Below, one piece after another: positions 22,314 through 40,893 of a DNA stretch of 64,000 bases; positions within the stretch are counted from its first letter, which is position 1, and each line of letters begins with the position of its first letter. The position numbers were made by a program, and so were the translations under genes. The DNA lies in assembly GCF_011044495.1 (NCBI RefSeq), contig NZ_CP049143.1, forward strand, positions 3,286,001 through 3,350,000, given 5' to 3'. The notes under the pieces are model-generated. The model saw only the letters and a list, made by a program, of their open reading frames with translations, was not told the origin of the DNA and made no database searches. The stretch is from Roseimicrobium sp. ORNL1 (GTDB taxonomy: Bacteria > Verrucomicrobiota > Verrucomicrobiia > Verrucomicrobiales > Verrucomicrobiaceae).

Positions 22314-23849
22314 TTATTGCTGAGCCTTCTTGCCGGCAGCTTCTTGTTCCTGCTCCCAGCGCAAATCTCCCTCAAAGTGAATGCCGCCTTTCGAACCTTC
22401 GTCATTGAAGGGATAGACTTTCACCCGGCGAGTCCCATCCTCCGGATGATAATGGTCGCGTAGCATGTAGAAGAGTTCGAAGCTGCGGACTTTCGTTGTG
22501 TGGTTGTTGTTCCACTCGCGTACAGCATATTCTGCGTACGCGCGAATGAATGGACCGGAACGGACAAGAAACATCCCGTGAAGATGTTTGTGCCAACGCG
22601 CATTTTTGAATTCCGAGGCTATGCCTGAACGAGGATGCTCCCAGGACACTGGAACTCCTCCATGCAGAGGGTCGACTATCCTGCCATCTTCAAGAACCGC
22701 CCGACCTACATACCAGCCATCGCGGGTCGCCGGACGAGGTGCGAAAAACTGCCAATTCTGGGAGAGACCGATCCAGTGGCCTGGGATTTTGAACGAGGCG
22801 GGAAAGCTTTTTGAAAGCCATGTTGGATAGAGCGTGGCGGCATTCCACCATACGATGTAGAACAGAAATACGCAAACCAACACAGGAGAACACAGGTCAA
22901 AGTATGAGCTCCGCAATTCCTTAGGGGTAGGAAATTGGCTGTTGGTTGTTCTCGGAACTCTCAAAGTCGCGCCAAGCTTGGATGCAAGCCAATCCCAAAA
23001 AGGACCCGGCAGGAAGAGGAGCCAAGCGGCGCCGCATGTCCAGGGGAAAATCCCGAGTCGCATGGTCAATCCAATGCCCGCTAGATGGAAGAATTGGAAG
23101 GCAAACACAGCGAGTGTCCTCGCTATCCAGTAGCGGTTGCCAAGCAAGGCGATGATGGGGCCCAGTTCTTCCAGCCAAAGGGTTGCTGCGGTCAGGAACT
23201 GCAGGAACGATGGAAATTGAAGGGCTGATGCTGCCAGCGGTTTTTGAAACGACTCGATTGCAATGGCAAGTTGAACGGCAGAGCCCTCTTCTCTCCATAC
23301 GGGATCGCTTTTGAAAAGTGCGGTCGCCCAGTACATGAGGCAAATTTGCAACAGCAGCGCTCGAGAGGGCCAGCCAGTGATGGTGTGACCCGGCGAGCGC
23401 AATCGAGCCTGCCTCCACGCCATACCAGGGAGAAACAAACTCCAAAACAGCAGGACACTAATAAGTGTGTCCGCACCCATATTCACTCCAGGAAGGCGGT
23501 TCTGCACTGAAGTGACGAGCAGTAGGCAGCATGGAAGCGCCAGGCGTGTGCGCCATCCGACCGCCAGCCAGAACCCTGAGGCACAGGTAAGCAGCAGCAT
23601 CAAGGCGTTGAAGAACACACTGCCATCGAGAAGCTGAAATGACCACAGCCATGGGGTCGCACCAATCTGCTTGAAAGCTTCTGCTCGGGGCCAGAGCCCG
23701 TCGTCCGAATAATGGGCTCGCACATCGGCCAGACGAAGCAGCATGTCAGTGGCGATAATCAGCCCCAAGGCAATGCGAAAGCACGCTAGGGATCTGGTGT
23801 CGATGCTTAAGGAAAATTTAGGGGTTGTATAACGGTTTCCGATCGACAT
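22314..23849 (-). CDS. HTTM (vitamin K carboxylase-like) membrane protein, copy 1
   Basis: The ATG at 23849 is preferred over the TTG at 23873; this yields 511 residues. About eight to ten hydrophobic segments fill residues 20-310. They include the signature block LLLQICLMYWATALFKSDPVWRE, which matches the HTTM/vitamin K-dependent gamma-carboxylase core pattern (aromatic-x-alpha...ALxK...W). The C-terminal ~180 residues form a soluble region with the segment NWQFFAPRPATRDGW. HTTM proteins are bacterial homologues of VKGC; most have unknown activity. The paralogue at 35428-36912 shares both blocks. The gene runs divergently from a tiny secreted peptide gene, only 47 bp away, an arrangement repeated in copy 2, so the peptide could be a partner or substrate. 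Confidence 0.82.
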   Translation of the reverse strand: MSIGNRYTTPKFSLSIDTRSLACFRIALGLIIATDMLLRLADVRAHYSDDGLWPRAEAFKQIGATPWLWSFQLLDGSVFFNALMLLLTCASGFWLAVGWRTRLALPCCLLLVTSVQNRLPGVNMGADTLISVLLFWSLFLPGMAWRQARLRSPGHTITGWPSRALLLQICLMYWATALFKSDPVWREEGSAVQLAIAIESFQKPLAASALQFPSFLQFLTAATLWLEELGPIIALLGNRYWIARTLAVFAFQFFHLAGIGLTMRLGIFPWTCGAAWLLFLPGPFWDWLASKLGATLRVPRTTNSQFPTPKELRSSYFDLCSPVLVCVFLFYIVWWNAATLYPTWLSKSFPASFKIPGHWIGLSQNWQFFAPRPATRDGWYVGRAVLEDGRIVDPLHGGVPVSWEHPRSGIASEFKNARWHKHLHGMFLVRSGPFIRAYAEYAVREWNNNHTTKVRSFELFYMLRDHYHPEDGTRRVKVYPFNDEGSKGGIHFEGDLRWEQEQEAAGKKAQQ

Positions 23850-23896
23850 TGCAATGAAGTGGGCCAATATCAATGGATACTCAAACCAGAAAAGTG

Positions 23897-24073
23897 ATGA
23901 AAAATCTTATTAAGTTCTCCCTGGCGACCGCTCTTTTGGCTCTTGCGCACTATGGATTCCATGTGGCTGCTGCTGTGAGGCACCATCACAGCCACGAAGT
24001 CGGATATACAGATTCCTCGACCTCGAGCAGTAACTCTTGCAACCCGAGTACTACTACCACCACCGGGGACTAG
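23897..24073 (+). CDS. Small exported peptide with a single C-terminal Cys, copy 1
   Basis: An in-frame ATG at 23873 exists, but the start at 23897 matches the layout of copy 2 and gives a classical signal peptide: MKNLIKF, then ALLALAHYGFHVAAA. The 58-residue product has a His-rich stretch (RHHHSH) and a Ser/Thr-rich tail with one cysteine in SNSCNPST. The copy-2 peptide at 36989 has the same size, leader and single Cys followed by x-Pro (EACDPGD). The gene starts 47 bp from the divergent HTTM gene and lies 37 bp before the RHS-like gene. Its function is unknown; a secreted, possibly modified peptide is a reasonable guess. Confidence 0.6.
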   Translation: MKNLIKFSLATALLALAHYGFHVAAAVRHHHSHEVGYTDSSTSSSNSCNPSTTTTTGD

Positions 24074-24110
24074 TAGAGGTGGCTTCCGTCACTATTTGCG
24101 GGGTTGAATT

Positions 24111-25415
24111 ATGTGGGTTGCTAGGGTTTTCACGTCAATGTGTGCCATCGTGGTCTGCGCAGTAGCGGCCTCGTTGGCACATGCTGCCGACCCTTACGTC
24201 TTTCGATATTTAGATAACGCTTTAGGTTTTGCGGATAAGCAGGGCAGCCTCTGCAATTGGTGGAATGCTGATGAGAAAATCGTGCTCGACGGCGAGACAG
24301 AGTTGCCGGTCCGCTTCCTATTTACGAGCAGTCAGAGGAATGTGGCTGACGGTTGCTTGGGACATGGTTGGTGGTTTCCTTTGTTTGAAAGCACTGTGGT
24401 GCAAAGCGACGAGGGCAAGGTCTTGATGCATGCCCCAGGAGGCTTCGTGTTCCATTTGTTGCAAGACGCCAAGAATGCTGACAAATATGCATCGCCGGAC
24501 GGGTTGATGGAAGGGAGGCTCCTATCTGGTGACGGGTTTGAAGTCAAGGATCACAAAGGGGGGTGGGGATTTCGTTTCCACAAAGGCAGATTACAGGAAG
24601 CTGTAACTCCGACGGGTGACGAACTGCGCTGGATCTATGAGGGCACGCGCGTCGTGAAGCTTACCTCGAAGAAGAAGGGCGATCTCATTACGGCGCGATA
24701 CAATCAAGAAGGTCTGCTGGAACGTTTCGACCTCACCCAGAGCAAGTACTGGACACAGTTCGGGTATACTCAGTACCCGTTGATGGCTAAAGTTCTGGAG
24801 AAAGCCGTGCCAGTGAGGATGGTACAGAGTGTGGGTGCAGTGAAGGCACCTGGGTTCGATGGCCGAATTAACTATGAGCCCGACACCGAGGCAGAGTCGT
24901 TGGCGATGAAAGTCAACTATGTGAGTCAGGCCACAGGCAAAAAACTGACGGAGAACTACAGCTGGGACTTGAATAGTGGGCATATCCTGACTGATCCTAG
25001 TCACACCTACACACTCACCTTCCCGGAGTCTGTCGGTGCGGGTCCTAGCAAGGTCGTGCGTACGGACGCGGCCGGTAAGAGCGAGAGCTACTCTTATGAC
25101 ACGAAAACTGGAGTTTGGGAGCACCTAAAGAAGAGTGGCGCAGTTGATAGGTATCACTACGTCTTAACACCCGGGCCAAACTATGGCAAGGTGCGTCGCC
25201 GAGATCTGCTGAAAGCGGGTTCAGACTCCGGCTTTTTGAAGGTATATGAGGCCTCGTGGGACAGCGCGGGAAGGACTCTTCGTGAAATTGGAGAGAATTA
25301 TTCTGTCACTTGGCAATACGGACAGGACGGCAGTGTCGTTGATTGCACTGTGGTTGACTTGACTACGGGAAAAAGGACCTCGGTCACGAATATGTTAAAA
25401 ACGATTGTTCCATGA
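24111..25415 (+). CDS. Exported YD/RHS-like beta-repeat protein, copy 1
   Basis: 434 residues with a signal peptide (about 1-25, SLAHAA). The mature protein is a chain of beta-hairpin repeats of the RHS/YD type without a toxin tail: tracts such as GWGFRFHKGRL and YSYDTKTGVWEH repeat the W/Y-x-Y-D-x-x-G pattern. The beginning of the mature region (RYLDNALGFADKQG) aligns with copy 2 (RQSNALGLADRYG at 37175), and both contain LGHGWWFPLFE/FGQGWWCPLLE, so these are clear paralogues. The downstream PDZ gene is coupled by ATGA. RHS-like folds often enclose or present a partner polypeptide, and the adjacent small peptide is a candidate, by inference only. Confidence 0.72.
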   Translation: MWVARVFTSMCAIVVCAVAASLAHAADPYVFRYLDNALGFADKQGSLCNWWNADEKIVLDGETELPVRFLFTSSQRNVADGCLGHGWWFPLFESTVVQSDEGKVLMHAPGGFVFHLLQDAKNADKYASPDGLMEGRLLSGDGFEVKDHKGGWGFRFHKGRLQEAVTPTGDELRWIYEGTRVVKLTSKKKGDLITARYNQEGLLERFDLTQSKYWTQFGYTQYPLMAKVLEKAVPVRMVQSVGAVKAPGFDGRINYEPDTEAESLAMKVNYVSQATGKKLTENYSWDLNSGHILTDPSHTYTLTFPESVGAGPSKVVRTDAAGKSESYSYDTKTGVWEHLKKSGAVDRYHYVLTPGPNYGKVRRRDLLKAGSDSGFLKVYEASWDSAGRTLREIGENYSVTWQYGQDGSVVDCTVVDLTTGKRTSVTNMLKTIVP

Positions 25416-26704
25416 GTCACAAGCTGAAGAAACATATGAGGAGGGTTTCCGTCGATGATGGTCATCATGAATCGGCCGGATTTGCGCGTATCTCCCTTGC
25501 GAGGTTTCTGGTCCATACTTGCGTAGTGGGATTCGTAGGAGCGAGCATCTTTGGCGGAAGTGTCCTGCATGGGCAAACGCCCACAGATAGCAAGCCAGCA
25601 AAGCCTCAACCGTCGCCGCGTGGAAAGCTGGAACTCAAGAAACTGCCGATCGAAGTTCCCAGGCTGGACGCCTTGGTTGACGGATTGGGAGTGCACAGCA
25701 AATATATCGTTCAAACTGTCAAGGAGGTGTTGCCATCCACCAAGACGAGCCCAGGAGGAGTCCGCACTACGAGACGTATTTATGAACGGGCTACAGACTG
25801 TCTGATGGTTGAGAGCTGGCTCAACTCCAATGCCACCGAGGTTTCCAACTCATCGACAGAGAAGGGGGAGGTGGAGAAGATCCTGATTTTTGAGAAGGAT
25901 GCCTTCTATTCTTGTAATGCCAAGGGGATCTGGACAAAGCTGCAGAACTTTGCTGAGGTGCGGTCCGATTTGAGCACAAGCACTCCATACGGAGGTTCGG
26001 TACACATATTTGAGACTCTTTTCGCAGCGCCAGTCTTGGGCCTCAAAATTGAAAGGATAAAGAAGAGTTGCCAGGACGTCATGAAGGAAGTCGCGGCCAA
26101 TCCGAGCAAGATGAGCCTGATGGCTGATCAGGTCGGAAGGGCGACGGATCTGTTGATGGCATTGCAAGAGAGGCCGATTCGACTGAAGGATGCTGAAATG
26201 ATGCCAATGCTGAAGATGCCCAGCAAAGGCTCCGAAACTCTGATCACATTCCTCCCGGAAAACGACAAACTGATCCAATCCATCAGTTTGACGCGAAATG
26301 GCAGGCTTGCAGGCACATGTGAGAACCTCTTTCTCAACGAGGTGGTGGACAAGCCCACTCGACCGGATCAGATTTCGCGACTCCTATCACCGACGCTGGC
26401 ATCAGGTCAGAACAAAAAAACAACAAACTTTGAGGCTATGGAGCGGGAGTGGCGCGCTCTGCCGCCCGATCGGAAGGCGGAAACTCTTGGGGCTGTCTTG
26501 GTTCCCTCTGCAAAGGGCCTCAAAGTTTTGCAGGTGTTTCCTGAGTCCAATGCAAAATCTATGGGGCTGGTTCCCGGGGACGAGATTGTCGCCGTGGATG
26601 GGGCTGCCGTGAGCGACATTTCAGCGCCGATGGCCATCAAAATGTTTGTAAATAAAAACGTAGAGTTAACACTCGCAAACGGAAAAAAATACATAAAACC
26701 ATGA
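25412..26704 (+). CDS. Exported protein with C-terminal PDZ domain
   Basis: 430 residues. A long basic N-terminus precedes a hydrophobic segment at about 30-50 (signal peptide or anchor, ending VLHGQ), then a Pro/Lys-rich linker. The central region (about 75-330) has no recognised fold. A PDZ domain occupies about 350-425, with the carboxylate-binding-type strand and the typical GLVPGDEIVAVDG loop. PDZ domains bind C-terminal tails of partner proteins; no Ser protease triad is seen, so it is not DegP-like. It is coupled at both ends (ATGA overlaps) with the RHS-like and Cys-rich genes, which points to one secreted complex. Confidence 0.7.
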   Translation: MSHKLKKHMRRVSVDDGHHESAGFARISLARFLVHTCVVGFVGASIFGGSVLHGQTPTDSKPAKPQPSPRGKLELKKLPIEVPRLDALVDGLGVHSKYIVQTVKEVLPSTKTSPGGVRTTRRIYERATDCLMVESWLNSNATEVSNSSTEKGEVEKILIFEKDAFYSCNAKGIWTKLQNFAEVRSDLSTSTPYGGSVHIFETLFAAPVLGLKIERIKKSCQDVMKEVAANPSKMSLMADQVGRATDLLMALQERPIRLKDAEMMPMLKMPSKGSETLITFLPENDKLIQSISLTRNGRLAGTCENLFLNEVVDKPTRPDQISRLLSPTLASGQNKKTTNFEAMEREWRALPPDRKAETLGAVLVPSAKGLKVLQVFPESNAKSMGLVPGDEIVAVDGAAVSDISAPMAIKMFVNKNVELTLANGKKYIKP

Positions 26705-27228
26705 AAGAACATTTCCGATTCAATTCCTCTATTTGGTCAGTGCAAGCAGCAGTGCTAGGTGGCTTGGTATGCTTTGGCGGCTTACTGCAGGATGGCCGTG
26801 CGGCCGATTGCTCGGGTGACCAAGTGATACCTCCAGCAGATGGCAGTGCCCATGTGGAGGACATTCCTGCCCAGGTGATTATGGAGGTTCAGAATAGTTC
26901 AAGTTACGAAGGGTGTATCGCAGGGGCGTTTACCATTAACGATGACAACTTTGACTTTGTGGACTATGTCACTTCTGGACAGGAGAGTGAGCCGGTCGAA
27001 GATGATTCATGTGCGTCCGGGTACAGGGTGTATGCCTATGACTCGGTGTATTCTATTGGTTGGTACTACTATGAGGGCGACGTCGAGATGCGTGATGAGG
27101 ATTCTGACTGTCCGAAGTGCGATGAGAAACCGAGTGTGTCGGTCTCGGGCAGTATCGCGGCGCATTCGGGACCAGCTACGAATATGTCCTCCGCCACTCC
27201 ATGCGGATGCGTTCCGATCTGGGCATAG
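26701..27228 (+). CDS. Exported acidic Cys-rich protein, copy 1
   Basis: 175 residues, coupled to the PDZ gene by ATGA. The signal peptide spans about 1-35 (VLGGLVCFGGLLQDGRAA, cleavage before DCSG). The mature part is strongly acidic and Tyr-rich with cysteines in DCSG, EGCIAG, DSCASG, DCPKCDE and PCGC, enough for several disulfides or a metal site. Copy 2 of the cassette has a different but equally Cys-rich protein at 38512. No family is recognised. The gene is last in the copy-1 operon; beyond it lies a pseudogene region. Confidence 0.65.
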   Translation: MKEHFRFNSSIWSVQAAVLGGLVCFGGLLQDGRAADCSGDQVIPPADGSAHVEDIPAQVIMEVQNSSSYEGCIAGAFTINDDNFDFVDYVTSGQESEPVEDDSCASGYRVYAYDSVYSIGWYYYEGDVEMRDEDSDCPKCDEKPSVSVSGSIAAHSGPATNMSSATPCGCVPIWA

Positions 27229-27382
27229 CCTCCTTAGTATGAAGAAGTAGTTTGGATGCGAGGGAGGAGGGATGCTCGGACCGTCGCGCGTCTTCCTCCA
27301 TCGACATGCGAGGTTTAGCTCAAGGGAGCAGCATGGGAAGATGGATAAAGTGGGTACGAAGAATTTATCTACCCTGAAGGGG

Positions 27383-27532
27383 CGATTCTCCGCTGGCGCT
27401 CGATTTACGACACCCTTCGTGAAACACTATTCAGATAGAATGCTCACTGAGTGCGCCTGTGGTGTGGGGCAGAGGCTCTTTCCGGTATAGGTGACCAGCT
27501 CACTTGTCGGCATTTTGGCTACAGGAAGGTAA
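27383..27532 (+). pseudogene. Decayed copy of the secreted alpha/beta-hydrolase gene
   Basis: The frame at 27383 encodes RFSAGARFTTPFVKHYSDRM, which matches the GFSAGARF nucleophile region of the intact protein encoded at 21413. It continues colinearly through CACGVGQ and VGILATG without gaps. Relative to that paralogue it has stop codons at 27488-27490 and 27530-27532, and nothing matching the N-terminal half is visible upstream. Weak similarity may persist to about 27600 (PEWTS). It is a relic of a duplicated family member. Confidence 0.75.
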
Positions 27533-27763
27533 GTTCCTCGAAGGAGGGCGGCAAAGAACTGCAGGAAATGTTTAAATCCCTTTTCAGGTGGTGCCACACC
27601 GGAATGGACGAGTTTGACTGTTTGTTTTCTCGGGATGATTCCAAGAATTGCATTCATGGCGCAAAGTTGTACTGGCAATCGCCGGACACATGTCTAGTCT
27701 TGTACCATTCTGAGCACCAAAAAATGATGATCATTGGATGGTGCAAGTTGAACCGACGTTATT

Positions 27764-29806
27764 GTGAACGCCGTGAAAGCCATTCTCACGTATTTAGCGC
27801 TTGGAGTGTCCGCTTATGCACAGCAGGCTCCTTCCCCAACCACGCCGCCGACACCGCCTCCGACCAAGCCTGCTGCAGTAGGCGCAGCAACGGCAGCCGC
27901 AGCGCCGGATCTGCAGAAGCTTCGCCCAAACGCTGCTCCTTATCGCATCGAGCGGGTGTCTTACGGCACGAATGCTTCGTTCAAGAAAGTGGAGATCTTT
28001 TGGGTGCCCCCGGCGCCGGCCCCCGCGGCGAAGCCAAAAGCATTTTTGGTGCTGGCCACGGATATGGCCAGAGCGCGCACTCCATTGGAGGACAAGGCGT
28101 GGGTTGATTTTGCGCAGAAGCAGGGTTTGGGCATCATGTCAGTAGGCATTGAAGAACTCGAGCAGACATCAAGGCTGTTGGAGTGCGCCACCGAATTGGG
28201 CAATCGCATTTACAAGGTTGCGGATGAGAAGTTTGGGCCGGGTCTGAAAGGGGCAGTAGTGAGTAGTGGCCTGGGTGGTACCTGGATGCACCGCGTGATG
28301 ATGCGTCAACCGTGGCGCTGGGGGTTCTGGAGTTCCCGTGGTGTCGCGAAGTATCCCATTCCACCTAGAGCGATTGAATACCCGGCCGGTGTGCTGTTCT
28401 GCACAGATGCGGCACACTATGAGAGCAATCTATTCTTCTTCCAGGATCTCCGCCGCACCAAGAACACCAATAAGGTCGGATTTCTATCCCTGGACGGAAA
28501 GGCAGTCGATCAGGCCTATGTGGATCGCATGACGCAGAATTACATGCTGGCTGTGTTCGGCGGCGGTATGGGGCAGAGCCGGTGGTATGATCTGAATACT
28601 GAAGTGGATCTCACGAATGTGGAAAAGAAGCCCTCCGCCATCGTGCAGAGCTGGGTCCCAGGCGATGAGGTTCCCGGGGCATGGAAACTGATGCACCAGG
28701 AGAAAAAGCGGGCGCCAGATTGCACGGTCGCCAACGCCACTATCAGTGTCCCTGAGCTGGCAAAGGACCTGACGGTCTTTTTTCGGATTCCCGGGAAAGT
28801 CAAGGAAGGGGTGGGGGTGCGCAGCGTGCTCATCTGTTTCCAGTGGGAGCAGTCAGACGACGATCTGTATAACAAGCTGCGCAGCAGCACCGAGTTTCAT
28901 TCCACGCTGTGGGAGCGGGAGCGCCTCGGTGTGATTGCGTTGAACATGCATTCCCTCGGGTTCACCCAGGACCTGAAGCCGGAGGACATAAAGCGACTGG
29001 AGCAAGTGGTGAAATTAGTGGCGGCTCCCTTTTGGAAGGCTGTGGGTGACGCGAGTACGGAACTCGGCTGGCCGCGGACAGGCTTGAATATCTTCGGAGC
29101 GCGCAGTGGCGCCGAATTTGCGGAGGCGCTGGTGCAGCTCGATACCACACCATCGAAGTTTGCGACGGTGCACCTGCATTGTGGCACGGTATTTTCCGAA
29201 CCGAAGCCTGAGCTCCGGAATATCGCATGGCTCGTGAGTACAGGTGGGAAGCACGAGGGTTTCACGGCATCCACCACGTTCTATCAGAACCTGAAGAAAA
29301 AGGGTTGGCCGGCGATGTATAAGATGTCCACCGGGAACTATGGCAATACGGACTACTGGACACATCTGGTGGGTGTACAGCTCTGCGGCTCCATCAAGAC
29401 GTGGACGGACGCGATCAAAAAGGATGTCACGGAAGGCCGTAAACCGCAGGCTGTCGATGCTGCAGCCATGTTGATTGGGCAGATGAACAATCCAGTCGTC
29501 TGGATGAATACCACGGACGGCCGCATATTCCTGGCCAAGGATGCTGAGAAGGTGCCTGCTGAAGTACGCATGGGTATTCCTACCTTGGACATGGAGGAGG
29601 CTTGGAGACTCAGCGGTGCGCCATTGCCTCCTGCTGCAACTACTCCGCCGTCGGGCCCTGTGCCAGCTCCGGCGCCTGATGGAGCCAAACCCTCCGTACC
29701 ACAGGGGACTCCTCCAAAGCCTGTGGCTTCGGCTTCTTCTTCACCAGCGGCGGTACCGAAATCGGGCGGTGCTTCTGGAACTCCAGCAACACCCGCCAAG
29801 CCATGA
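27764..29806 (+). CDS. Exported two-module, partly degenerate alpha/beta-hydrolase-like protein
   Basis: 680 residues by the GTG at 27764; the GTG at 27773 would give a cleaner signal peptide (KAILTYLALGVSAYAQQ). A Pro/Ala/Thr-rich linker follows, then two hydrolase-like modules. Module 1 (about 60-300) has SSGLGGTWM where the nucleophile elbow should be, so Ser is not in the standard position. Module 2 (about 330-560) has FGARSGAEF, a near-classical elbow. The C-terminal ~70 residues are Pro/Ala/Ser-rich and disordered. It is coupled (ATGA) to the three-module paralogue at 29803. The domain pairing recalls duplicated scaffolds in which some copies lose activity and become binding modules. 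Confidence 0.65.
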   Translation: MNAVKAILTYLALGVSAYAQQAPSPTTPPTPPPTKPAAVGAATAAAAPDLQKLRPNAAPYRIERVSYGTNASFKKVEIFWVPPAPAPAAKPKAFLVLATDMARARTPLEDKAWVDFAQKQGLGIMSVGIEELEQTSRLLECATELGNRIYKVADEKFGPGLKGAVVSSGLGGTWMHRVMMRQPWRWGFWSSRGVAKYPIPPRAIEYPAGVLFCTDAAHYESNLFFFQDLRRTKNTNKVGFLSLDGKAVDQAYVDRMTQNYMLAVFGGGMGQSRWYDLNTEVDLTNVEKKPSAIVQSWVPGDEVPGAWKLMHQEKKRAPDCTVANATISVPELAKDLTVFFRIPGKVKEGVGVRSVLICFQWEQSDDDLYNKLRSSTEFHSTLWERERLGVIALNMHSLGFTQDLKPEDIKRLEQVVKLVAAPFWKAVGDASTELGWPRTGLNIFGARSGAEFAEALVQLDTTPSKFATVHLHCGTVFSEPKPELRNIAWLVSTGGKHEGFTASTTFYQNLKKKGWPAMYKMSTGNYGNTDYWTHLVGVQLCGSIKTWTDAIKKDVTEGRKPQAVDAAAMLIGQMNNPVVWMNTTDGRIFLAKDAEKVPAEVRMGIPTLDMEEAWRLSGAPLPPAATTPPSGPVPAPAPDGAKPSVPQGTPPKPVASASSSPAAVPKSGGASGTPATPAKP

Positions 29807-32703: not shown

Positions 32704-32724
32704 CGCCACTTTCATTTTGGGAAT

Positions 32725-34098
32725 ATGCGCGACTATTTCTTTGAGGGTCAACTAAGACTGGATTGGGGATTTGGAAATCCCAACACGACGGGTGCTTTGA
32801 TCGCCGTGCTCATGATTGGAGCGTGGTTGTTGGCATTCTGGGGGAGGTGGGGTTTTTGGCTGTCATTGCTGATCAATGTCGGGCTGGGTGCCTGCCTCGT
32901 GCAGACCTATTCCCGCGGCGCACTGGTCGCTTTGATTGTCGGCTTGGTTCCTCTGATCTGCGTGGCCCGCCGTCCCTGGCGGAGGTCGCAATTGATAGGT
33001 ATCGTGGTCGCGTTGATGCTCCTTGGGGGATATGCATGGCAACAACGGGCCACACAGCGCTACGCCAAGGGGATAGTCACGGAGGACGGATCCGTCTCCA
33101 ATCGTTGGCTCATCTACCGCATGGCGCCGCGCATGATGTGGGACGCACCGGAAGGCTGGGGGTGGGGGAGATCCGGTGATGCCTTCCGGCAGTGGTACCA
33201 GCCCACGGGGCGCCTGGAGCACTATACGCACCTGATCAGCACGCATGGCACCTGGCTGGTAGAGTGGGGTTGGCCGCTGCGAGTTAGCTACGTGGCAGCA
33301 TGGGCGTTGGCACTCACCCTTTGCTGGCCCGGCAAACGCAACCGCTGGCTGGCGGTGGGCTTGGGCGTGACCCTGTCATTCGCAGTTTCATGCACCTTTA
33401 CCCACGTGGGCAGGGAGAAGTGGTTGTGGGCAGGTCCCGCGGCAGCATTGCTGCTGGCGGTAGGAGCACGTCTGTGGACGCGCGACTTCTCCTGGCGCCG
33501 GACCATCGCTGCTACCCTCGGTGCGAGTGCCGCGGTCGTCGCGCTGCTGGTGATATGGGCGCAGGTCGTTCAGCCCGCGCACCGCATTCATCTCCGCCGT
33601 GGGGTGGTCGAAGTGGGCACAGCTGCACCGGGTGCCACCCGCGCCATTGGCTTGCTTCAGCCGGACCACCGTGTAGTCGGCCAGTTCTATGGCCAGCGCA
33701 TTCGCGAGACGCTGAGCACTGCCGAGGGAACTACTCTGTCATTCCATGTGCAGTGGACTGCAGATGCAGTGTTAAACTCAGGCCTTGATACGGTAGTGGT
33801 CGCGGGGGATGCTGCCAGGGGTATCGCAAATCCCTTGGGCTCTGCGCTCTCCTCCGCCCGCGCGGTGTTGTTGATCAATCCTTCCGAGCCCTCTCCCCAG
33901 TTTGCCGAACTCGTGCCAAAACTGCCACGCGTGCATCAGGTGCATGGGCAGATGTGGGGTGGCACCTCCAGATATCTCTGGGAAGCCCTGCTGGCCTCTC
34001 ACGAGAGAGCCACCACCGCACAACTGCCCATGTCCAGCCTGTTTGTCCCGAAATGGACCAGTTGCCTGGTCATTCCAGAGATCCCCGGCAAGTCATGA
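32725..34098 (+). CDS. O-antigen ligase-like (Wzy_C) membrane protein, apparently lacking the first helices
   Basis: 457 residues with about eight to nine hydrophobic segments up to residue 275 and a soluble C-terminal part of ~180 residues. GNPNTTGALIA near residue 18 and the QTYSRGALVAL block near 62 are typical of the Wzy_C/O-antigen ligase family, where they normally come after several N-terminal helices. Here they sit close to the start, so the protein seems shortened at the front or starts late. A large periplasmic loop around 110-180 fits the family. The C-terminal region is not a known ligase part and looks like a compact alpha/beta domain. It lies between the hydrolase genes and the rhodanese gene (ATGA overlap). 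Polysaccharide or lipid-linked glycan transfer is the likely role. Confidence 0.7.
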   Translation: MRDYFFEGQLRLDWGFGNPNTTGALIAVLMIGAWLLAFWGRWGFWLSLLINVGLGACLVQTYSRGALVALIVGLVPLICVARRPWRRSQLIGIVVALMLLGGYAWQQRATQRYAKGIVTEDGSVSNRWLIYRMAPRMMWDAPEGWGWGRSGDAFRQWYQPTGRLEHYTHLISTHGTWLVEWGWPLRVSYVAAWALALTLCWPGKRNRWLAVGLGVTLSFAVSCTFTHVGREKWLWAGPAAALLLAVGARLWTRDFSWRRTIAATLGASAAVVALLVIWAQVVQPAHRIHLRRGVVEVGTAAPGATRAIGLLQPDHRVVGQFYGQRIRETLSTAEGTTLSFHVQWTADAVLNSGLDTVVVAGDAARGIANPLGSALSSARAVLLINPSEPSPQFAELVPKLPRVHQVHGQMWGGTSRYLWEALLASHERATTAQLPMSSLFVPKWTSCLVIPEIPGKS

Positions 34099-34673
34099 CG
34101 ACGAATAACTCCCCGCGCCATTCACTTTTCAGAGATGCCATCACTGCCGCGGTCATCGCAGCGGTCGCGTTCGCGATCGGCATCGGGACCAACTTCTTGC
34201 GGGCCAAGCCACTGCCGTGGGTCTATGAACCACCGGCACGTGCCATGGTGGCCGCCATCCAGGAAGCGACTGCTACTGATGGCTCGTCCCAAGAAACATC
34301 GGGCAGCCCAAGCTCTTCACCTACTGGTGTCACGGGAGGTGTGCGCATCGTCAGCCTGCAAGAGACCCGCCAAATGGTGGAAGCCGGTAACGTGCTGATC
34401 CTCGACGCGCGACCGGACCTCTTCCATCAACTGGGGCACATCAAAGGGGCAAAGAATCTCTCCAAGAAGAACTTCCAGCAGGATTTTCAAACGCTCAAAG
34501 GAACCCTGGACGCAGCTCATGGAAAGAAGCGGCCCATCCTCGTTTATTGCGCGGATATCCACTGCCCTGACGCCGGCACCGTTGCTGGCTGGCTGATGGA
34601 AAAGGGATATGGCGGCCTCCTGATTTTCGAAGGGGGATGGGCGGAGTGGGAGTCGGCAGGTCTCGCCGGATAG
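34095..34673 (+). CDS. Membrane-anchored rhodanese-like protein
   Basis: The ATG at 34095 overlaps the preceding stop, giving 192 residues. One hydrophobic segment (about 14-32) anchors the protein, followed by a Ser/Thr/Gly-rich linker and a single rhodanese domain (about 85-190). The domain shows the substrate-side LILDARPD strand, HIKGAKNL, and an active-site loop YCADIHCPDA in which the first Cys is the candidate persulfide nucleophile and a second Cys follows four residues later. It probably faces the periplasm. The neighbouring MauE/DoxX gene (49 bp downstream) and downstream DUF1573 lipoprotein point to redox or sulfur handling outside the cytoplasm. Confidence 0.8.
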   Translation: MTTNNSPRHSLFRDAITAAVIAAVAFAIGIGTNFLRAKPLPWVYEPPARAMVAAIQEATATDGSSQETSGSPSSSPTGVTGGVRIVSLQETRQMVEAGNVLILDARPDLFHQLGHIKGAKNLSKKNFQQDFQTLKGTLDAAHGKKRPILVYCADIHCPDAGTVAGWLMEKGYGGLLIFEGGWAEWESAGLAG

Positions 34674-34722: not shown

Positions 34723-35163
34723 ATGAAACTCCGAGAAATTTCCGTGTGGATTGCTCGTCTCATCGTGGGTGGCTTGTTCACCTATGCAGGGGTAATGAAG
34801 TTGTTAAACCCCGCCTCTTTCAGCAGTTCGCTGGCCGGATTCGGGATCCTTCCGGTCGGGATCATCTCTCCCCTGGCGCTCGGTCTTCCTGTGGTGGAAA
34901 TCTTCTTTGGCATCGCAGTGCTCGCGGTTCCAGCCCTTCGAAGAGCTGGAACTATTGGCCTTGTCTGTCTGCTGTTGACTTTCATTACTGTACTGAGTTG
35001 GGCCACCATCGCCGGCAAGAAGATGGAGTGTTCGTGTTTTGGGTCCGATTCCTTCTTGGAGTTTGGTGGAACCGTCGGTGCCCTTGTGAGAAATCTAGTA
35101 ATGGTCACGATGGTGACTTATCTCCTTGTTCATGGGTACAAATCCGAAAGGTTGCGTTCCTAG
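34723..35163 (+). CDS. MauE/DoxX-family redox membrane protein
   Basis: 146 residues with four hydrophobic segments in the MauE/DoxX pattern: the first with GGLFTYAGVMKLLNP, a typical family start, and the last ending near the C-terminus. A CSCFG motif near residue 105 provides two cysteines one residue apart in a loop, a hallmark of the MauE-like branch that pairs with thioredoxin-like or DUF1573 partners. Family knowledge: MauE is needed for disulfide formation and maturation of exported proteins. The gene is downstream of the rhodanese and convergent with HTTM copy 2. Service to the Cys-rich secreted proteins of the neighbouring cassette is inference. Confidence 0.82.
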   Translation: MKLREISVWIARLIVGGLFTYAGVMKLLNPASFSSSLAGFGILPVGIISPLALGLPVVEIFFGIAVLAVPALRRAGTIGLVCLLLTFITVLSWATIAGKKMECSCFGSDSFLEFGGTVGALVRNLVMVTMVTYLLVHGYKSERLRS

Positions 35164-35301: not shown

Positions 35302-35427
35302 GATCCGGGGGGATCTTGGAATTCAACGGGGTGAACTCCAACCTTTCGAATCATTCAATCCCTCAGTTGTGCGCGATTCGGGGTCACCGCGCAGTGCACG
35401 AGGGGCTCGCCTCTTGCCGTACGAAGC

Positions 35428-36912
35428 TTAGAGCTCCTCAGCGGGCTCGGTGGGATTGCTCGGCTTCGGGGCATTGTCCGTGGGGCGCGGCGTGATTGAC
35501 TTGGGATAGATTTCAGCCTGTAGAATTCCGGCCCGCACATCTTCGCTGTCACGATATCTAAATATCAGCGACATTTGCAAAACTTGGTCGGTATGTTTGG
35601 CGTTCCAGTCACGTATGAGGAATGAGTGGAGGTTCTCAATCGACTTTGGGTGTTGTTTTTGGAAGATGTCGACCAGATGCTTACGCCATCTCCAATTCCT
35701 GTAGTGCGATGCCACCTTTTCCACAGGTTCATCGAAGACAGGAGGCTTTCCGGTCAATAGATCGACAGTCTGCCCGGACTGCAGTTGCGCCACAGCAAGC
35801 ATCCATCCATCCCGCGTGGAGGGTCTGGACGCGAATAGGTTCCATCGCTGATTCAATCCCATGACGATGCTTGGAGCGCGGACTGGGCGAGTAAACCAAT
35901 CTGCCGTAAGCTCGGGTTTGGCTGCTTGGACATTCCAGGAAACCACGGAAGCGAACGACGCGATCGTAACAAGGGCTACGCAACATTGATAAACGATTGG
36001 TCTCTCTTTGACCGTCACATCAACCGAAAATGGAGCGTGGTTGAAACGATTTGGCAGAAGGTAATCCCATGCCTCTTTGGGTATAAAGACTGTCCACGCT
36101 GCGATGCAAACTAAAGGAAACCAGCCAATCAAAAGAGTCGGGAGCAGCGCAAGATGAAAGCCAATAAAAAGGGCGACCGTGACCGTTCTTACGCGCCAAT
36201 ACCGCGGTGGCGAAAGCGCCAAGAAGGGACCGACTTCTTCGAGGAGTAATGTCGCCTTGGTTGCCCAAAACGTTAGCAGGGGAAATTGCGCGACGAATCT
36301 TCCTGCTGACGTCTGCATGGAGCCTAGTGAAAGAGAGGCCTGCACCGCCGTAAAGTGTTCCCTCCAAACGGGATGACTCTTGAGGAGAGCTGTTGACCAA
36401 TACATGAGGCAGACCTGAAGCAATAAGCCGGCTGTCGCAAATCCCAGAGGCTGGCGGCGCGGCTCCCTGGAACGTTGAACCAATTGTTCCAAGGCAATGA
36501 GCATGTTCCAGAATAAGAGGAGTTTTTGTAGAGTGTCGCCGCCGTTGTTCAGGGTAGGGGCGCGAGCAATCACCGAAACTTGGAAAATCCAGGCCAAGCA
36601 TGATATCGGAAGAACAAAACGCTGGCACGTGACCAACAATATTCCTGAAAGACCGTAGCAAACTAAACAGAGCACCTGCCACGCATCGGATTCGCTCAGA
36701 AACATCAGTGACCAGCGTAAAGAGCCGGCGGTGAATTCAGGATCCGACGCGCTTACTGCGCGAGATATTGGGAACATGCTATCACTCGCGTAGTGGGCGG
36801 AAAAATCGCCCAGCCTTAGGATGCTGTCTGCAAGCATCAGGATTCCAAGCGCCGCCCGGAAGACTCTCAATGACCTGGTATCAATTTCAAAGCATCGTAA
36901 AAACTGTCGCAT
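35428..36912 (-). CDS. HTTM (vitamin K carboxylase-like) membrane protein, copy 2
   Basis: 494 residues, paralogous to 22314-23849. Both begin with the block DTRSL...FR.ALG...D..LRL.D..AHY, share LLLQVCLMYWSTALLKSHPVWRE, and carry NQRWNLFASRPSTRDGW in the soluble C-terminal part. About eight to ten hydrophobic segments lie between 15 and 300. The last ~25 residues are Pro/Asn/Thr-rich. It is divergent from a 48-residue secreted peptide gene, 76 bp from it. Family knowledge is limited: HTTM proteins are related to eukaryotic vitamin K-dependent gamma-glutamyl carboxylase, but carboxylase activity cannot be assumed. Confidence 0.82.
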   Translation of the reverse strand: MRQFLRCFEIDTRSLRVFRAALGILMLADSILRLGDFSAHYASDSMFPISRAVSASDPEFTAGSLRWSLMFLSESDAWQVLCLVCYGLSGILLVTCQRFVLPISCLAWIFQVSVIARAPTLNNGGDTLQKLLLFWNMLIALEQLVQRSREPRRQPLGFATAGLLLQVCLMYWSTALLKSHPVWREHFTAVQASLSLGSMQTSAGRFVAQFPLLTFWATKATLLLEEVGPFLALSPPRYWRVRTVTVALFIGFHLALLPTLLIGWFPLVCIAAWTVFIPKEAWDYLLPNRFNHAPFSVDVTVKERPIVYQCCVALVTIASFASVVSWNVQAAKPELTADWFTRPVRAPSIVMGLNQRWNLFASRPSTRDGWMLAVAQLQSGQTVDLLTGKPPVFDEPVEKVASHYRNWRWRKHLVDIFQKQHPKSIENLHSFLIRDWNAKHTDQVLQMSLIFRYRDSEDVRAGILQAEIYPKSITPRPTDNAPKPSNPTEPAEEL

Positions 36913-36988
36913 ACGGTAAAATTCAGAAAAAAAATATTGCTCTCACGAGACTTTTGTCCAGAATGATCAGAACATCATTTACATCTCT

Positions 36989-37135
36989 ATGAAGAAAATT
37001 GGACTTTTTGTGTTGGCTGGTCTGGCTATCGGATTGATTCACGGCGCATTCGATCAAACGTCTCGTCGGCTGCCGAAAAGCTTAAATGCGGAAGCGTGTG
37101 ATCCCGGGGATACTGATCCATCGGCTGATCAGTAA
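36989..37135 (+). CDS. Small exported peptide with a single C-terminal Cys, copy 2
   Basis: 48 codons: MKKIGLFVLAGLAIGLIHG is a clear signal sequence, followed by a short basic stretch (TSRRLPKS) and an acidic tail EACDPGDTDPSADQ with one Cys. The layout, size and Cys-x-Pro match the copy-1 peptide at 23897, although direct identity is low. It lies 76 bp from the divergent HTTM gene and 39 bp before the RHS-like gene, nearly the same spacing as in copy 1. The acidic tail would suit a modification enzyme acting on Glu/Asp or Cys, but this is speculation. Confidence 0.6.
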   Translation: MKKIGLFVLAGLAIGLIHGAFDQTSRRLPKSLNAEACDPGDTDPSADQ

Positions 37136-37174
37136 GGTGAGATTTAGGTGAAACGCGGCTTGCTATAGCACCAT

Positions 37175-38515
37175 ATGAAACGTGAATTAATCATAGTATG
37201 GTTTCTATGGCTCGCGGGGGCGGTCTCCGCTCAAGACCTGTCTGCCCTCTTTATTCGTAGGCAGTCGAATGCGCTGGGACTTGCGGATCGTTACGGGTAC
37301 TGCACCTACTGGAAGGACGTGGGACAGAGTGTCTTGATTGACGGTCACCAGGTGCCGCTGCAGCTAAGGTTTGCCACAGCTCCAGATCAGCAGTTCGGCA
37401 GATTGTTTGGACAGGGCTGGTGGTGCCCGTTGTTGGAATGTTGCGTCATTCAGCGTTCGGAAACGGGATTGATTCTCTATACGCCCGGCGGAGATCGCGT
37501 GGATTTATTGAAAACTCCTGGAAAACCCAACCAATATGCTTCCAAAAACGGGAGGTGGTTGGGTGAGGTACAAGGAGGTGATTTTAAGGTGGCCTTCGAC
37601 TCTGAAAATGAATTTGAGTTCAAAGGAGGGCGTATTTCACGCTTCGTAACTAAAGGTAATACTTACCGTTGGATCTATAAAGATGATGTTCCTGTGGCAC
37701 TTGTCGCTGACAAAGAAAGGAAGACCTTGCTGGAAGTCCGCTACGGGGCCAACTCCTTGGTTAATAAGATTATAGCCCCTGGTGCAGAGGTGGACGCTGA
37801 ATACACCTCATTTCCTATCGTCGGGAGTTTGGGGGGGCGTGCAACGGTTGTGGGATTAAAGCACTCATTGGCAAGTCTGCGTTCAAAGGGGACAGACATC
37901 ATCAAGCTGACGTACGAGCTTGAGTCGCTGGGCTCCTTTGTGGTTGCTCGTGGCGTCGAAAATGGAGCGAAAAATCTATTGATGGAGTGGAGTGCTTCGG
38001 AAGGTCTCCTAAAGCGAGACGAATTCCGTGCCTATCAAGTTTCGCCTCAGGAGGGTGGGGTCTCGCGGCCCAAGATCACGGCCATATGGAACGACGGACG
38101 CACGGAATGGTACGCATACAACGAAAAGACGGGTGTCGCTGAACGACGTCTGCCCGATGGCACCTTTAATCGGCTATACTATGTGTTGACGCCTGGGCTG
38201 GCCCAAGGTAAACTACGCAAGAGCGAGATGCTGGACAGTAACCAGGTCCTCGAATCCTCGTGTGTTTCGCAAAGAGATTCAAACGGGAAGTTAAAGCGTT
38301 CGGTGGTCAGCGGTAAAGGCTGTTCCGAGGTAACGGAGTACGCCAACGGCGCGGCTGTCAAAATTGTGAGAGACGGGAAAGTCATCTTTGACGCGTCCAC
38401 GCCCTCCTCATTCAATGTGTTCTCCAAGTTCCTACAAGCCACGCAAACTTCTCCACCAATGACAAAGGCAGAGAATTCTCAGGTGCAACAATCAAAGTCC
38501 ACAAGCCTCAATTGA
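37175..38515 (+). CDS. Exported YD/RHS-like beta-repeat protein, copy 2
   Basis: 446 residues with a signal peptide (IIVWFLWLAGAVSAQD). The mature part aligns with copy 1: RQSNALGLADRYG, FGQGWWCPLLE, and later NDGRTEWYAYNEKTGVAERRL followed by RLYYVLTPGLAQGKLRK, matching copy 1 RYHYVLTPGPNYGKVRR. The repeats are YD/RHS-like beta hairpins with no toxin or protease domain. The tail is Ser/Thr/Gln-rich and disordered. It overlaps the next gene by ATGA. Paralogous conservation with the HTTM gene and the peptide in both places argues that these genes function together. Confidence 0.72.
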   Translation: MKRELIIVWFLWLAGAVSAQDLSALFIRRQSNALGLADRYGYCTYWKDVGQSVLIDGHQVPLQLRFATAPDQQFGRLFGQGWWCPLLECCVIQRSETGLILYTPGGDRVDLLKTPGKPNQYASKNGRWLGEVQGGDFKVAFDSENEFEFKGGRISRFVTKGNTYRWIYKDDVPVALVADKERKTLLEVRYGANSLVNKIIAPGAEVDAEYTSFPIVGSLGGRATVVGLKHSLASLRSKGTDIIKLTYELESLGSFVVARGVENGAKNLLMEWSASEGLLKRDEFRAYQVSPQEGGVSRPKITAIWNDGRTEWYAYNEKTGVAERRLPDGTFNRLYYVLTPGLAQGKLRKSEMLDSNQVLESSCVSQRDSNGKLKRSVVSGKGCSEVTEYANGAAVKIVRDGKVIFDASTPSSFNVFSKFLQATQTSPPMTKAENSQVQQSKSTSLN

Positions 38516-38916
38516 TCATCCATATTATGCGTACTCCTACGATTCTAATGGGCCTAGTTACCTCGGTCGCTTTCTCGTTAATATTGTTCCAATATGCCCA
38601 TTCGCAGTGTTGTCCCTACGGCTATGAGAATGATAGCTTGGAGTCCTATCTTGCGAATTGTGGCCAAAAAGTGAATGGCCATTGCCAGGGGGATTCTTGC
38701 AACGCTCAACAAGCTCCCAGCAGCGAAAAATGCGGAGCTGGCAACTACCTCTCCGATTGCGACTATGAACAGCGGGGTGGTGGCGTGTTCTGGACTATTG
38801 AGGGTACATGCAAAACTGATGACAACTGCGGTTGTACCAACGCGCAGCGCACCTTTTATGACGCGGATTGGCCATGGTACGAGGTCACTAGTACGGAATC
38901 GATAAACTGTGATTAA
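38512..38916 (+). CDS. Exported Cys-rich protein, copy 2
   Basis: 134 residues from the ATG overlapping the RHS-like stop; an ATG at 38527 would also preserve the signal peptide (ILMGLVTSVAFSLILF...AHS). The mature ~100 residues contain more than a dozen cysteines (QCCPYG, ANCGQ, GHCQGDSC, EKCGAG, SDCDYE, TCKTDDNCGC, INCD), consistent with a small disulfide-rich domain. I do not recognise it. It takes the same operon role as the Cys-rich protein at 26701. The next gene begins at the stop of this one. Confidence 0.65.
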   Translation: MIIHIMRTPTILMGLVTSVAFSLILFQYAHSQCCPYGYENDSLESYLANCGQKVNGHCQGDSCNAQQAPSSEKCGAGNYLSDCDYEQRGGGVFWTIEGTCKTDDNCGCTNAQRTFYDADWPWYEVTSTESINCD

Positions 38917-39898
38917 GATGAGGTATTCACGTCACCCATTAACATCCATGTTCGGTGCCCGCCTATTGATGGGCACCTGCTTCATGCTGATTGCTCCAAT
39001 TGTCGTCCTTTCTGGCGATGTTTTGCCCCTCGCAGACATCGTTAAGACTCAGACCCAGTTGAGCTACGGCAGTCAATTCGTTTGGGAGGTGGAGCATGAA
39101 ACCTCAAGTGCCGAGTTGTCGCGCGTTATCCGCAGGTATGAGGAGAAGGCAAAGAGGCCTTATCCGGGGAATAGAGATGTTAGCAAGCCGCAGCTCGTCT
39201 ACCAGAGAATTGTCACTTCGCTGTTAAGCGCTGGCGCCTACACATCCAGGGTGGAAATTTCACGTGATCCAGGTTTTGAAAAACCTTCGGTGGAGGAATG
39301 GCTCGTTCCCGGGGACGGAATGTGTTACAACACGTCGTTTGCGAATAAAGAGCTTACGGTCTATAAACTCGACCAAATGAACCCGTTGATCGACTTGGAC
39401 GGGCTCTGGGGATTTTTGCGGATGAACTTGGAAAGGCCGTCTGCTAAACCCGAAGTAATACCGGGGAATTTTACCCTTCCCAAGGTGCTAGGCGGAGAGA
39501 ATCCACAATGGCGCGTGATTTTAGACGAAGGGCGGTTGGAGATCCTCTTCTGGTTTGATGCGACAAAGGGCGTCATCCGACGGGTCGCCCAAGTGGAAGA
39601 CGGTTTCGTCCGGTGCGACTGGACTGTCAGCAGTGACAAATACGAAAATGGAGTCTGGCCGACAGAGGTCAAAAGCACACTGTATATCCCAAAAAGCGAA
39701 GAGATTCAGGTGAAAAAGGTGTGGAAGCTCAAGGAGGTTAAGATTGGCGCCGTGCGCTCTCTTCCCTCTCTTCCCAAATTGGATGGCATGCGAGGCATCA
39801 AGGACATGACCCAAGGCTCTCCCGTTTTTATGAGCTTAAGGACTCTTTTGCAGATGAAGAAATTGCCAGAAACCCAACCGCAAGCAGAGAAAAAGTGA
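38909..39898 (+). CDS. Exported protein of unknown function in the copy-2 cassette
   Basis: 329 residues from GTG at 38909; ATG at 38918, just past the preceding stop, is an equally possible start. A signal peptide is present (ARLLMGTCFMLIAPIVVLSG). The mature part is mostly beta, with alternating hydrophobic strands and paired Trp/Val motifs (FVWEVEHETS, DWTVSSDKYENGVWP) reminiscent of LolA/outer-membrane lipoprotein carrier-like folds, but this is not a firm assignment. It occupies the place of the PDZ protein in copy 1 without showing a PDZ domain. It overlaps the DUF1573 gene by GTGA. Confidence 0.6.
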   Translation: MIKMRYSRHPLTSMFGARLLMGTCFMLIAPIVVLSGDVLPLADIVKTQTQLSYGSQFVWEVEHETSSAELSRVIRRYEEKAKRPYPGNRDVSKPQLVYQRIVTSLLSAGAYTSRVEISRDPGFEKPSVEEWLVPGDGMCYNTSFANKELTVYKLDQMNPLIDLDGLWGFLRMNLERPSAKPEVIPGNFTLPKVLGGENPQWRVILDEGRLEILFWFDATKGVIRRVAQVEDGFVRCDWTVSSDKYENGVWPTEVKSTLYIPKSEEIQVKKVWKLKEVKIGAVRSLPSLPKLDGMRGIKDMTQGSPVFMSLRTLLQMKKLPETQPQAEKK

Positions 39899-40893
39899 GA
39901 CGAATCTATCCCGCCCTCTTCATTTTCGCCTTAATCTTGACTTCTTGCAAGCGCGCGGATCTCAGGGAACTAGTGCCGCAGAAAGATCCCGTGGTAGTTC
40001 CTGCGACCAAGGAAGGTGAGAGAATTGTCATTCCCATCACCTTTCACAATTCAAGTAACCGGCAACTCCGGATCGAGAAGATTTCCAGTTCGTGTTCTTG
40101 TGCGGCCATAAAGGAGTATGCGGGAACTCCGGTGGCAGCTTACGGAGATATTGCTGTGGAAGTAGTTGTCAAAGTACCCGCGGTTGTGGGGTTGCGTGAA
40201 ACAACCATTGCTGTCGAGTATTCCATCAACGGAGAGACCAAGTTTACCCAAGCAAAAGTCCGCACATGGAGCGAACCCCGGCTTGGTTTCATGCTCTATC
40301 CCAAATTTGGAGGGCATACGCAATCCGAGGATGGAGCAATTTCGATTAGGACTGGTCGGCGATTTTCCGTGGTTATGCCCCCTGAAAAATTGAAGACATT
40401 GACTTTGCTTCAAACACCCACTCTGCTACTCGAAACCGAAGGTCCCGCAGAGGTGGTTCCAGACGCTGCCGGAAAATATAGCCGCCAGCGGTTTCTCATT
40501 CATCGAACTACGACAGATGTCGTGCCTGCATCAATCTCATATTTCCAAGCGATCATTGATCCGAACCAAAATTCCATTCGGGTTGAGCGTCATTCGTTGG
40601 CAGAGTCCCATCAGGCCACCGACGTCAATATCAACGTATTGGCTGACGTGGAGAAGGGTGAAGACGGTGCTTTGACCTTGGTCGCACATTTGCCCGACTG
40701 GTACACAAAATATACGCCGACTAAGACTGATGAATCTCATGTGACATGGATGCCCAAGGAGAATGGGGTTTTGCTCAAGCTACCAGCTATTAATTCAGAG
40801 TCCCGGGTCGTCAGGGCACAACTCAGCCTTACATCAGTGTCTGAAAACCCACGGACAATTAACTTGAGTTTGATACGGATCCTTCCGCCGTAG
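39895..40893 (+). CDS. DUF1573-domain lipoprotein
   Basis: 332 residues starting with GTG that overlaps the preceding stop. The N-terminus has a short hydrophobic stretch ending in a lipobox, LILTSCK, so the protein should be a lipoprotein. The first ~110 mature residues match DUF1573 (an immunoglobulin-like beta sandwich): IPITFHNSSNRQLRIEKI, then SSSCSCAAI with two cysteines, and a GLRETTIAVEY strand. The remaining ~200 residues add two more beta domains. DUF1573 proteins frequently accompany MauE/thioredoxin-type redox genes; a MauE gene lies nearby at 34723. It is the last gene of the copy-2 operon. Confidence 0.8.
   Translation: MRRIYPALFIFALILTSCKRADLRELVPQKDPVVVPATKEGERIVIPITFHNSSNRQLRIEKISSSCSCAAIKEYAGTPVAAYGDIAVEVVVKVPAVVGLRETTIAVEYSINGETKFTQAKVRTWSEPRLGFMLYPKFGGHTQSEDGAISIRTGRRFSVVMPPEKLKTLTLLQTPTLLLETEGPAEVVPDAAGKYSRQRFLIHRTTTDVVPASISYFQAIIDPNQNSIRVERHSLAESHQATDVNINVLADVEKGEDGALTLVAHLPDWYTKYTPTKTDESHVTWMPKENGVLLKLPAINSESRVVRAQLSLTSVSENPRTINLSLIRILPP

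Follow-up and report, generated by a model that had tools for sequence, protein, structure and literature searches.

A conserved locus of a small export-type peptide and a half-size RHS-like protein, with a GGCX-fold HTTM protein as frequent third member

Two cassettes with a gene for a small export-type peptide lie in the 64,000-nucleotide stretch of Roseimicrobium sp. ORNL1 analysed here (contig NZ_CP049143.1, positions 3,286,001 to 3,350,000; hereafter the window). In each, an HTTM membrane protein gene stands divergent to the peptide gene, which is followed by a gene for an RHS-like protein and by overlapping downstream genes. In this study, we found that this locus is real, conserved, apparently undescribed and broader than first noted, and that its centre is the peptide together with the RHS-like protein. 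The first-pass annotation of the window had proposed a possibly undescribed secreted peptide system with an HTTM protein like the vitamin K-dependent carboxylase, and this part of it was supported. No paper on a locus of HTTM, RHS and a small peptide was found in the literature within reach, which left out most subscription papers and preprints.

The upstream region of the RHS-like genes was examined across related genomes (loci and genomes bear our handles, L and G). An RHS-like profile, built first from seven proteins of which six came from HTTM loci, was run against 386 genomes of the order, 387 of the phylum and 68 of the family and matched 25 (E 1e-6), 5 (E 1e-15) and 6 (E 1e-20) of them, respectively; some matches were fragments or long RHS proteins. 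The RHS-like set comprises 24 proteins, and the upstream count uses 23, as L086 has 160 bp of DNA upstream to its contig end. L093 and L094 (a long RHS gene and a fragment), L107 and long RHS genes were omitted before counting. Under a fixed rule, an export-type open reading frame (ORF) of 38-110 amino acids (aa) ending within 250 bp upstream was present at 13 of 23 RHS-like genes vs 8 of 142 control genes of the same fetched regions, each with at least 150 bp of room upstream (Fisher p 2e-8). Export and signal peptides were called throughout by a hydropathy rule rather than by a trained predictor. Four of the control hits (L045:7716, L045:10915, L092:9365 and L106:10231) sit inside RHS clusters, and L082:1345 has a plausible secreted gene of a different kind. 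Judged by eye, 14 of the 23 genes have an upstream export-type ORF: L087 passes the rule but looks spurious, and L064 and L091, which fail it apparently owing to overlapping ORFs, were counted. The nine RHS-like genes without a peptide ORF are L051, L082-L085, L087, L089, L092 and L105; several RHS and HTTM regions stop at contig ends, where absence is weaker. The gap from the peptide to the start of the longest RHS ORF was 23-39 bp in 10 of 14 loci, and 5 bp in L095, 68 in L064, 127 in L090 and 181 in L045. If the later ATG starts of the alignments are taken instead, it becomes 56 bp in L029 and 66 bp in L041.

We then compared the occurrence of HTTM with that of the peptide. HTTM was present in 8 of 14 peptide loci (both window cassettes, L029, L041, L045, L031, L088 and L064) vs none of the nine RHS loci without a peptide (p 0.006). 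Divergent HTTM and peptide genes stood 15-111 bp apart in both window cassettes, L029, L041 and L045. The first-pass annotation had taken the peptide for a companion of HTTM in general and suggested looking for small signal-peptide ORFs near HTTM genes elsewhere. When this search was run, 35 HTTM genes without an RHS-like neighbour (19 and 16 from two scans) had no convincing small export ORF within 1.5 kb, which largely undoes that claim. The first scan covered 20 regions including L088, and the second 16 further HTTM genes. Seven ORFs in five regions of the first scan (L034, L036, L039 twice, L048 and L088 twice) passed a looser rule, and by judgement none was a peptide of the RHS-locus kind; one of the L088 ORFs, which lies on the opposite strand downstream of HTTM and encodes 77 aa with 2 Cys, resembles a lipoprotein. 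The peptide gene of L088 lies about 2 kb from its HTTM gene, beyond the 1.5-kb scan. Two ORFs passed in the second scan, both in L132, at or beside its HTTM match. Conversely, genomes G007, G679 and G418 hold both peptide and RHS and have no HTTM match in the whole genome (E 0.001). HTTM as a constant partner of the peptide is thus rejected. These results demonstrate that the constant pair is peptide and RHS, and that HTTM is a frequent, optional third member. The occurrence of the peptide ORF upstream of RHS-like genes exceeds chance (13 of 23 vs 8 of 142).

The peptides are conserved in other genomes by position and, within subgroups, also by sequence as far as the alignments indicate. Related peptides are those of cassette 1 and L029, of L088, L090 and L064, and of L104 and L106; the L041 and L045 peptides are linked by a Pro run. 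Related peptides show signs of purifying selection in their coding sequences: synonymous (pS) and nonsynonymous (pN) differences were 0.83-0.88 and 0.20-0.44 in four related pairs (cassette 1-L029, with 0.88 and 0.44, L088-L064, L088-L090 and L104-L106), 0.87 and 0.45 in L041-L045, and 0.73 and 0.53 in the barely alignable pair of cassette 2 and L029. Saturation of pS makes the whole test rough, a sign rather than a measure. At the six loci with a fused HTTM (described below), the peptide has its last Cys 11-13 residues before the C-terminus, with N, D, S or T in the next position and P or S in the one after, and each peptide has 1-2 Glu after residue 24. The peptides of L088, L090 and L064 are 75-99 aa long with repeats. 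We also noticed, post hoc, that 6 of the 8 peptides from HTTM loci (those of both cassettes, L029, L041, L045 and L088) carry a His close to where the hydrophobic stretch ends, vs 1 of 6 others.

We next examined the HTTM protein. Pfam HTTM matched P0002 weakly (E 2e-4, below the cut-off) and P0001 not at all. An AlphaFold2 model of P0002 (mean pLDDT, the predicted local distance difference test score, 88) was compared with the PDB; the best 16 matches were all human GGCX, 14 of them at E <0.001. Model residues 1-471 superposed on GGCX 34-487 with Z 19.9 and a root-mean-square deviation of 5.5 over 370 aligned residues at 14-17% identity. A profile of 23 relatives likewise found GGCX among PDB sequences at E 3e-8 to 2e-6, the next matches being reaction-centre L chains at E of at least 0.008. 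As judged from the model, the HTTM protein has the GGCX fold. K178 is invariant (23 of 23 rows) and aligns with GGCX K218, and W183 (22 of 23 rows) aligns with GGCX W223. In the sequence alignment, the position of GGCX H160 is G or A (G125 in P0002), and D follows in 21 of 23 rows (D126 in P0002). According to PMC12589487, K218 of GGCX deprotonates vitamin K hydroquinone, and H160A impairs Glu carboxylation.

The C-terminal 130 residues of the fused HTTM proteins are homologous to stand-alone proteins, about 170 aa long, that are encoded in L064 and L088. In L088, the gene of the separate protein stands before an HTTM gene whose product matches the SdpB family (E 2e-15; 57 bits against model TIGR04033, cut-off 178), and in L064 the separate protein adjoins an HTTM match. 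The tentative label SdpA-like draws mainly on the L088 gene pair. These results suggest a single module that occurs either split, as the separate SdpA-like protein, or fused, as the C-terminal part of HTTM proteins. By eye, the QxWxxF motif of the C-terminal domain resembles the GGCX segment around W399-M402. The window's own genome has two more HTTM genes, neither with such a peptide within 1.5 kb: one in L097:6324-10153, which is preceded by the gene of a separate SdpA-like protein with a similar FAP motif and followed by an autotransporter gene, and one at 1.43 Mb with a strong Pfam HTTM match.

The RHS-like protein was modelled as P0006 (pLDDT 84). Its model matched the Rhs core of the type VI secretion system (T6SS) (Foldseek E 9e-12; Z 22.6 over 325 residues) and aligned to residues 360-723 of the 1037-residue 8qjb. 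The 24 RHS-like proteins are 395-579 aa long; on this modelling, the protein has the RHS fold and forms about half a shell. No sign of a C-terminal toxin was seen in the RHS-like protein. DPxG, which we take to be the RHS core motif, occurs in none of the 24 relatives, and thus there is no sign of a toxin release site. A third RHS-like gene of the window's genome (L051:5419-9155) is followed by small Cys-bearing, exported-type and lipoprotein-type genes, with neither peptide nor HTTM. Other genes of peptide-maturation type occur near three RHS loci: in L089:9572-12098, the RHS-like gene precedes genes for a radical SAM/SPASM protein (PapB model 7e-77, below the cut-off) and a 348-aa protein with 32 Cys, and two more loci have a C39 domain (L086, E 1e-11) or a C39 match just below the cut-off (L031).

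Four known systems share parts with this locus. In SdpABC and YitPOM of Bacillus subtilis, as described in PMC6818787, an HTTM-type membrane protein and an SdpA protein are likewise encoded with a small secreted peptide, the SdpA/SdpB paralogues YitP/YitO occur with a secreted peptide toxin, and peptide sequences differ among paralogues, as they do here. B. subtilis matches both the HTTM and the SdpB models, which fits SdpB being of HTTM type. Unlike SdpABC, the HTTM and SdpA-like parts are mostly fused here, the precursors are 47-99 aa with hydrophilic tails, an RHS half shell is the partner, and P0001 and P0002 miss the SdpB model. Human GGCX has the fold of model residues 1-471 and the K218 and W223 positions in common with the window HTTM; it differs in H160, which the window HTTM lacks, and shares only 14-17% identity. 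No Glu-rich substrate was found beside the HTTM gene among the six peptides examined at fused-HTTM loci. Linaridin clusters, which make ribosomal peptides, also combine an HTTM protein with an alpha/beta hydrolase (corynaridin crdG and crdE), their roles being described as unclear in PMC9927463; here, by contrast, the peptide N-terminus is of export type and the partners are RHS, Wzy_C and MauE proteins. Neither peptides nor HTTM proteins matched NCBIfam linaridin precursor or modification models at E up to 1, the content of the library for those models being unchecked. The RHS fold of P0006 is also that of T6SS Rhs, teneurin and Tc shells, but here it makes about half a shell, with a signal-type N-terminus and no C-terminal toxin seen.

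In Bacillus subtilis, maturation of SdpC is attributed to SdpA and SdpB. Our preferred explanation, which we offer tentatively, is that the locus makes an exported peptide and a half-RHS shell, and that in about half of the loci the peptide is matured in an SDP-like way by the HTTM-SdpA protein. The small peptide would be exported via its N-terminal signal, as its hydropathy suggests, and would act outside the cytoplasm. The exported half shell, encoded just downstream, may hold or present it, and the Cys-rich, DUF1573 and hydrolase-like exported proteins would act alongside. At about half of the loci, the GGCX-fold HTTM with its SdpA-like domain, fused or encoded separately, would mature the peptide on the outer side of the membrane; going by gene order, the peptide may be the target of HTTM. 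The product may serve competition or surface structure. A more specific version, which we consider doubtful, is a two-part export system that has the peptide enclosed or presented in trans by the toxin-less half shell, with HTTM-SdpA using the K218-type lysine and a reduced quinone for a modification other than Glu carboxylation. We found little on the function of bacterial GGCX-like HTTM proteins beyond SDP-type toxins and linaridin clusters. The compact, repeated and conserved gene set described here ties a protein of this kind, which retains the catalytic lysine but has lost the carboxylation His, to a small exported peptide and a minimal RHS shell. If the peptide is processed or modified, it would be a small, testable substrate for the GGCX fold in bacteria.

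Several points weigh against this explanation. HTTM is missing from 6 of 14 peptide loci and from the three whole genomes named above, and the RHS profile, with its seed drawn mostly from HTTM loci, may favour HTTM-linked loci. The selection test carries the roughness stated with it, and the peptide compositions are so diverse (Cys-bearing, poly-Pro, NNG repeats) that a single chemistry is hard to see. Neither P0001, P0002 nor the separate L088 and L064 proteins reach any NCBIfam SdpB or SdpA model, the DUF5819 match is weak and confined to L064 (E 0.0085), and the profile of the fused domain missed the separate protein of L097. RHS loci contribute six fused HTTMs to a tree of 23 HTTM proteins; five of these form a group (85/86, not starred), and one clade of all six is not rejected (p-AU, by the approximately unbiased test, 0.151), with long branches calling for caution; the link of fused HTTM and RHS may be one old event. 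A somewhat unlikely alternative is that peptide, half-RHS and Cys-rich proteins form a secreted structural or adhesive complex, in which HTTM, MauE and rhodanese would serve redox or envelope chemistry and the peptide would stay unmodified. The pair without HTTM in G007, G679 and G418, the MauE and rhodanese genes that share the cluster in several genomes and the Cys-rich partners all fit this complex, but the confinement of HTTM to peptide-bearing RHS loci (8/14 vs 0/9) does not, nor does the start of the window HTTM genes 47 and 76 bp from the peptide start.

The presence of both HTTM and a hydrolase at the locus recalls linaridin-like maturation, in which the two would act together on Ser/Thr or Cys residues of a ribosomally made peptide; cassette 1 and L029 do encode Ser/Thr-rich peptides with a C-terminal Cys. 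We judge this improbable: the hydrolase-like proteins appear exported, one without GxSxG, and occur also in loci without HTTM, the L041 and L045 tails are mostly Pro, and the peptide N-terminus is of the export-signal type, unlike a cytosolic leader. The first-pass annotation had hinted that HTTM gamma-carboxylates Glu of the peptides. The GGCX fold and the K218-type base are retained, in favour of this idea, but H160, reported in PMC12589487 as important for the reaction, is lost in the sequence alignment, its position being Gly or Ala followed by Asp, and the tails beside fused HTTMs have 1-2 Glu each. Glu carboxylation is therefore very unlikely. That the short ORF yields no product and serves the RHS operon as a regulatory leader would suit its place, 23-39 bp ahead of the RHS ORF in 10 of 14 loci; the signs of purifying selection on its amino acids and the 75-99-aa repeat-bearing forms in L088, L090 and L064 make it the least credible reading.

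The two window cassettes share their layout, as first reported (Table 1). The HTTM start lies 47 bp from the divergent peptide start in cassette 1 and 76 bp in cassette 2, the RHS-like start 37 and 39 bp behind the peptide stop, and the genes behind the RHS-like genes overlap by 4-8 bases. An in-frame ATG at 23873 would extend peptide 1 from 58 to 66 aa. Three paralogous pairs had been claimed, of which two were recovered: P0001 and P0002 are 37% identical over 471 positions, and P0005 and P0006 are 28% identical in direct pairwise comparison. The two peptides gave no BLASTP alignment, leaving paralogy undetectable, and two comparisons between downstream exported proteins of the cassettes showed no similarity. 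The downstream genes, described at first as coupled and Cys-rich, are overlapping and of exported type, but just one per cassette is clearly Cys-rich (8 and 11 Cys); the remaining ones have 3-5 Cys. RHS-like protein 1 is 52% identical to the L029 protein, from another genus, and 26% identical to its window neighbour, so the pair did not arise by recent duplication. The term duplicated is thus misleading; by sequence, the cassettes parted long ago or were acquired separately. The G+C content is 0.52-0.54 at 22-28 kb and 0.50-0.52 at 36-42 kb; the DNA that separates these two parts has 0.55-0.60, that on their right about 0.60, and at 10-20 kb the value is also 0.54-0.57. A promoter and terminator scan was uninformative (8 and 21 sites vs 9.4 and 19.3 in shuffles).

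Table 1. Genes of the two cassettes and of the surrounding cluster, in window positions
Feature	Position	Strand	Remark
ABC transporter, single chain with ATPase and ABC2 membrane domain	19743-21416	+	
Alpha/beta-hydrolase-like protein, GFSAG	21413-22285	+	ORF 21326-22285; start 21413 by reading
HTTM protein 1 (P0001), GGCX-type membrane domain and fused C-terminal SdpA-like domain	22314-23849	-	ATG 23849, alternative TTG 23873
Small export-type peptide 1, 58 aa, Cys 11 residues from C-terminus	23897-24073	+	Relative in L029 (E 1e-4)
Exported half-size RHS-like protein 1 (P0005)	24111-25415	+	Pfam RHS_repeat E 0.006, below cut-off
Exported-type protein, C-terminal PDZ domain (P0007)	25412-26704	+	4-base overlap with RHS stop
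Exported-type Cys-rich protein, 8 Cys (P0008)	26701-27228	+	
Hydrolase-like exported-type protein, no GxSxG	27764-29806	+	
Hydrolase-like exported-type protein, GVSRG	29803-32703	+	
Wzy_C-type membrane protein	32725-34098	+	Co-occurs with RHS-like gene
Rhodanese-domain protein	34095-34673	+	ORF 33954-34673, start 34095 by reading; PF00581 E 3e-16
MauE/DoxX-type membrane protein	34723-35163	+	PF07291 E 1e-25
HTTM protein 2 (P0002), fused C-terminal SdpA-like domain	35428-36912	-	
Small export-type peptide 2, 48 aa, Cys 12 residues from C-terminus	36989-37135	+	
Exported half-size RHS-like protein 2 (P0006)	37175-38515	+	RHS fold by model
Exported-type Cys-rich protein, 11 Cys (P0009)	38512-38916	+	In-frame ATG 38527 by reading
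Exported-type protein, unknown family (P0010)	38909-39898	+	
DUF1573 protein, lipoprotein-like start (P0011)	39895-40893	+	PF07610 E 4e-6

Both cassettes belong to a wider conserved cluster of ABC, hydrolase-like, Wzy_C, rhodanese and MauE genes. The Wzy_C-type protein was found in 12 of 239 genomes of the order, whose membership was inferred from handle numbers: 8 of 13 with a strong short RHS-like match vs 4 of 226 others (p 3e-9). Among these last four, G023 and G162 have weaker RHS matches, and G042 has an RHS fragment beside its Wzy gene (L123). Relatives of the ABC protein adjoin RHS or Wzy genes in L092, L103, L104 and L120. The hydrolase and Wzy genes are contiguous in G049, and in the window cassette 1 lies between two of them. 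An anti-phage system was considered and rejected: PADLOC, run on eight proteins, matched one, the ABC protein, by ATPase models. In L121:5681-11126, past the MauE gene, we read adaptor-like, PqqD/M50-like membrane and radical SAM-like proteins.

To the left of the cluster, on the minus strand, lie a phage-integrase family gene (14271-15731) and a DUF3987 gene (10559-13021); with the somewhat lower G+C content, this region is possibly an integrated element. Farther left, a 2096-aa protein (2664-8954) matches protein kinase, DUF4011, helicase-type AAA and MTES_1575 nuclease domains and may be of defence type.

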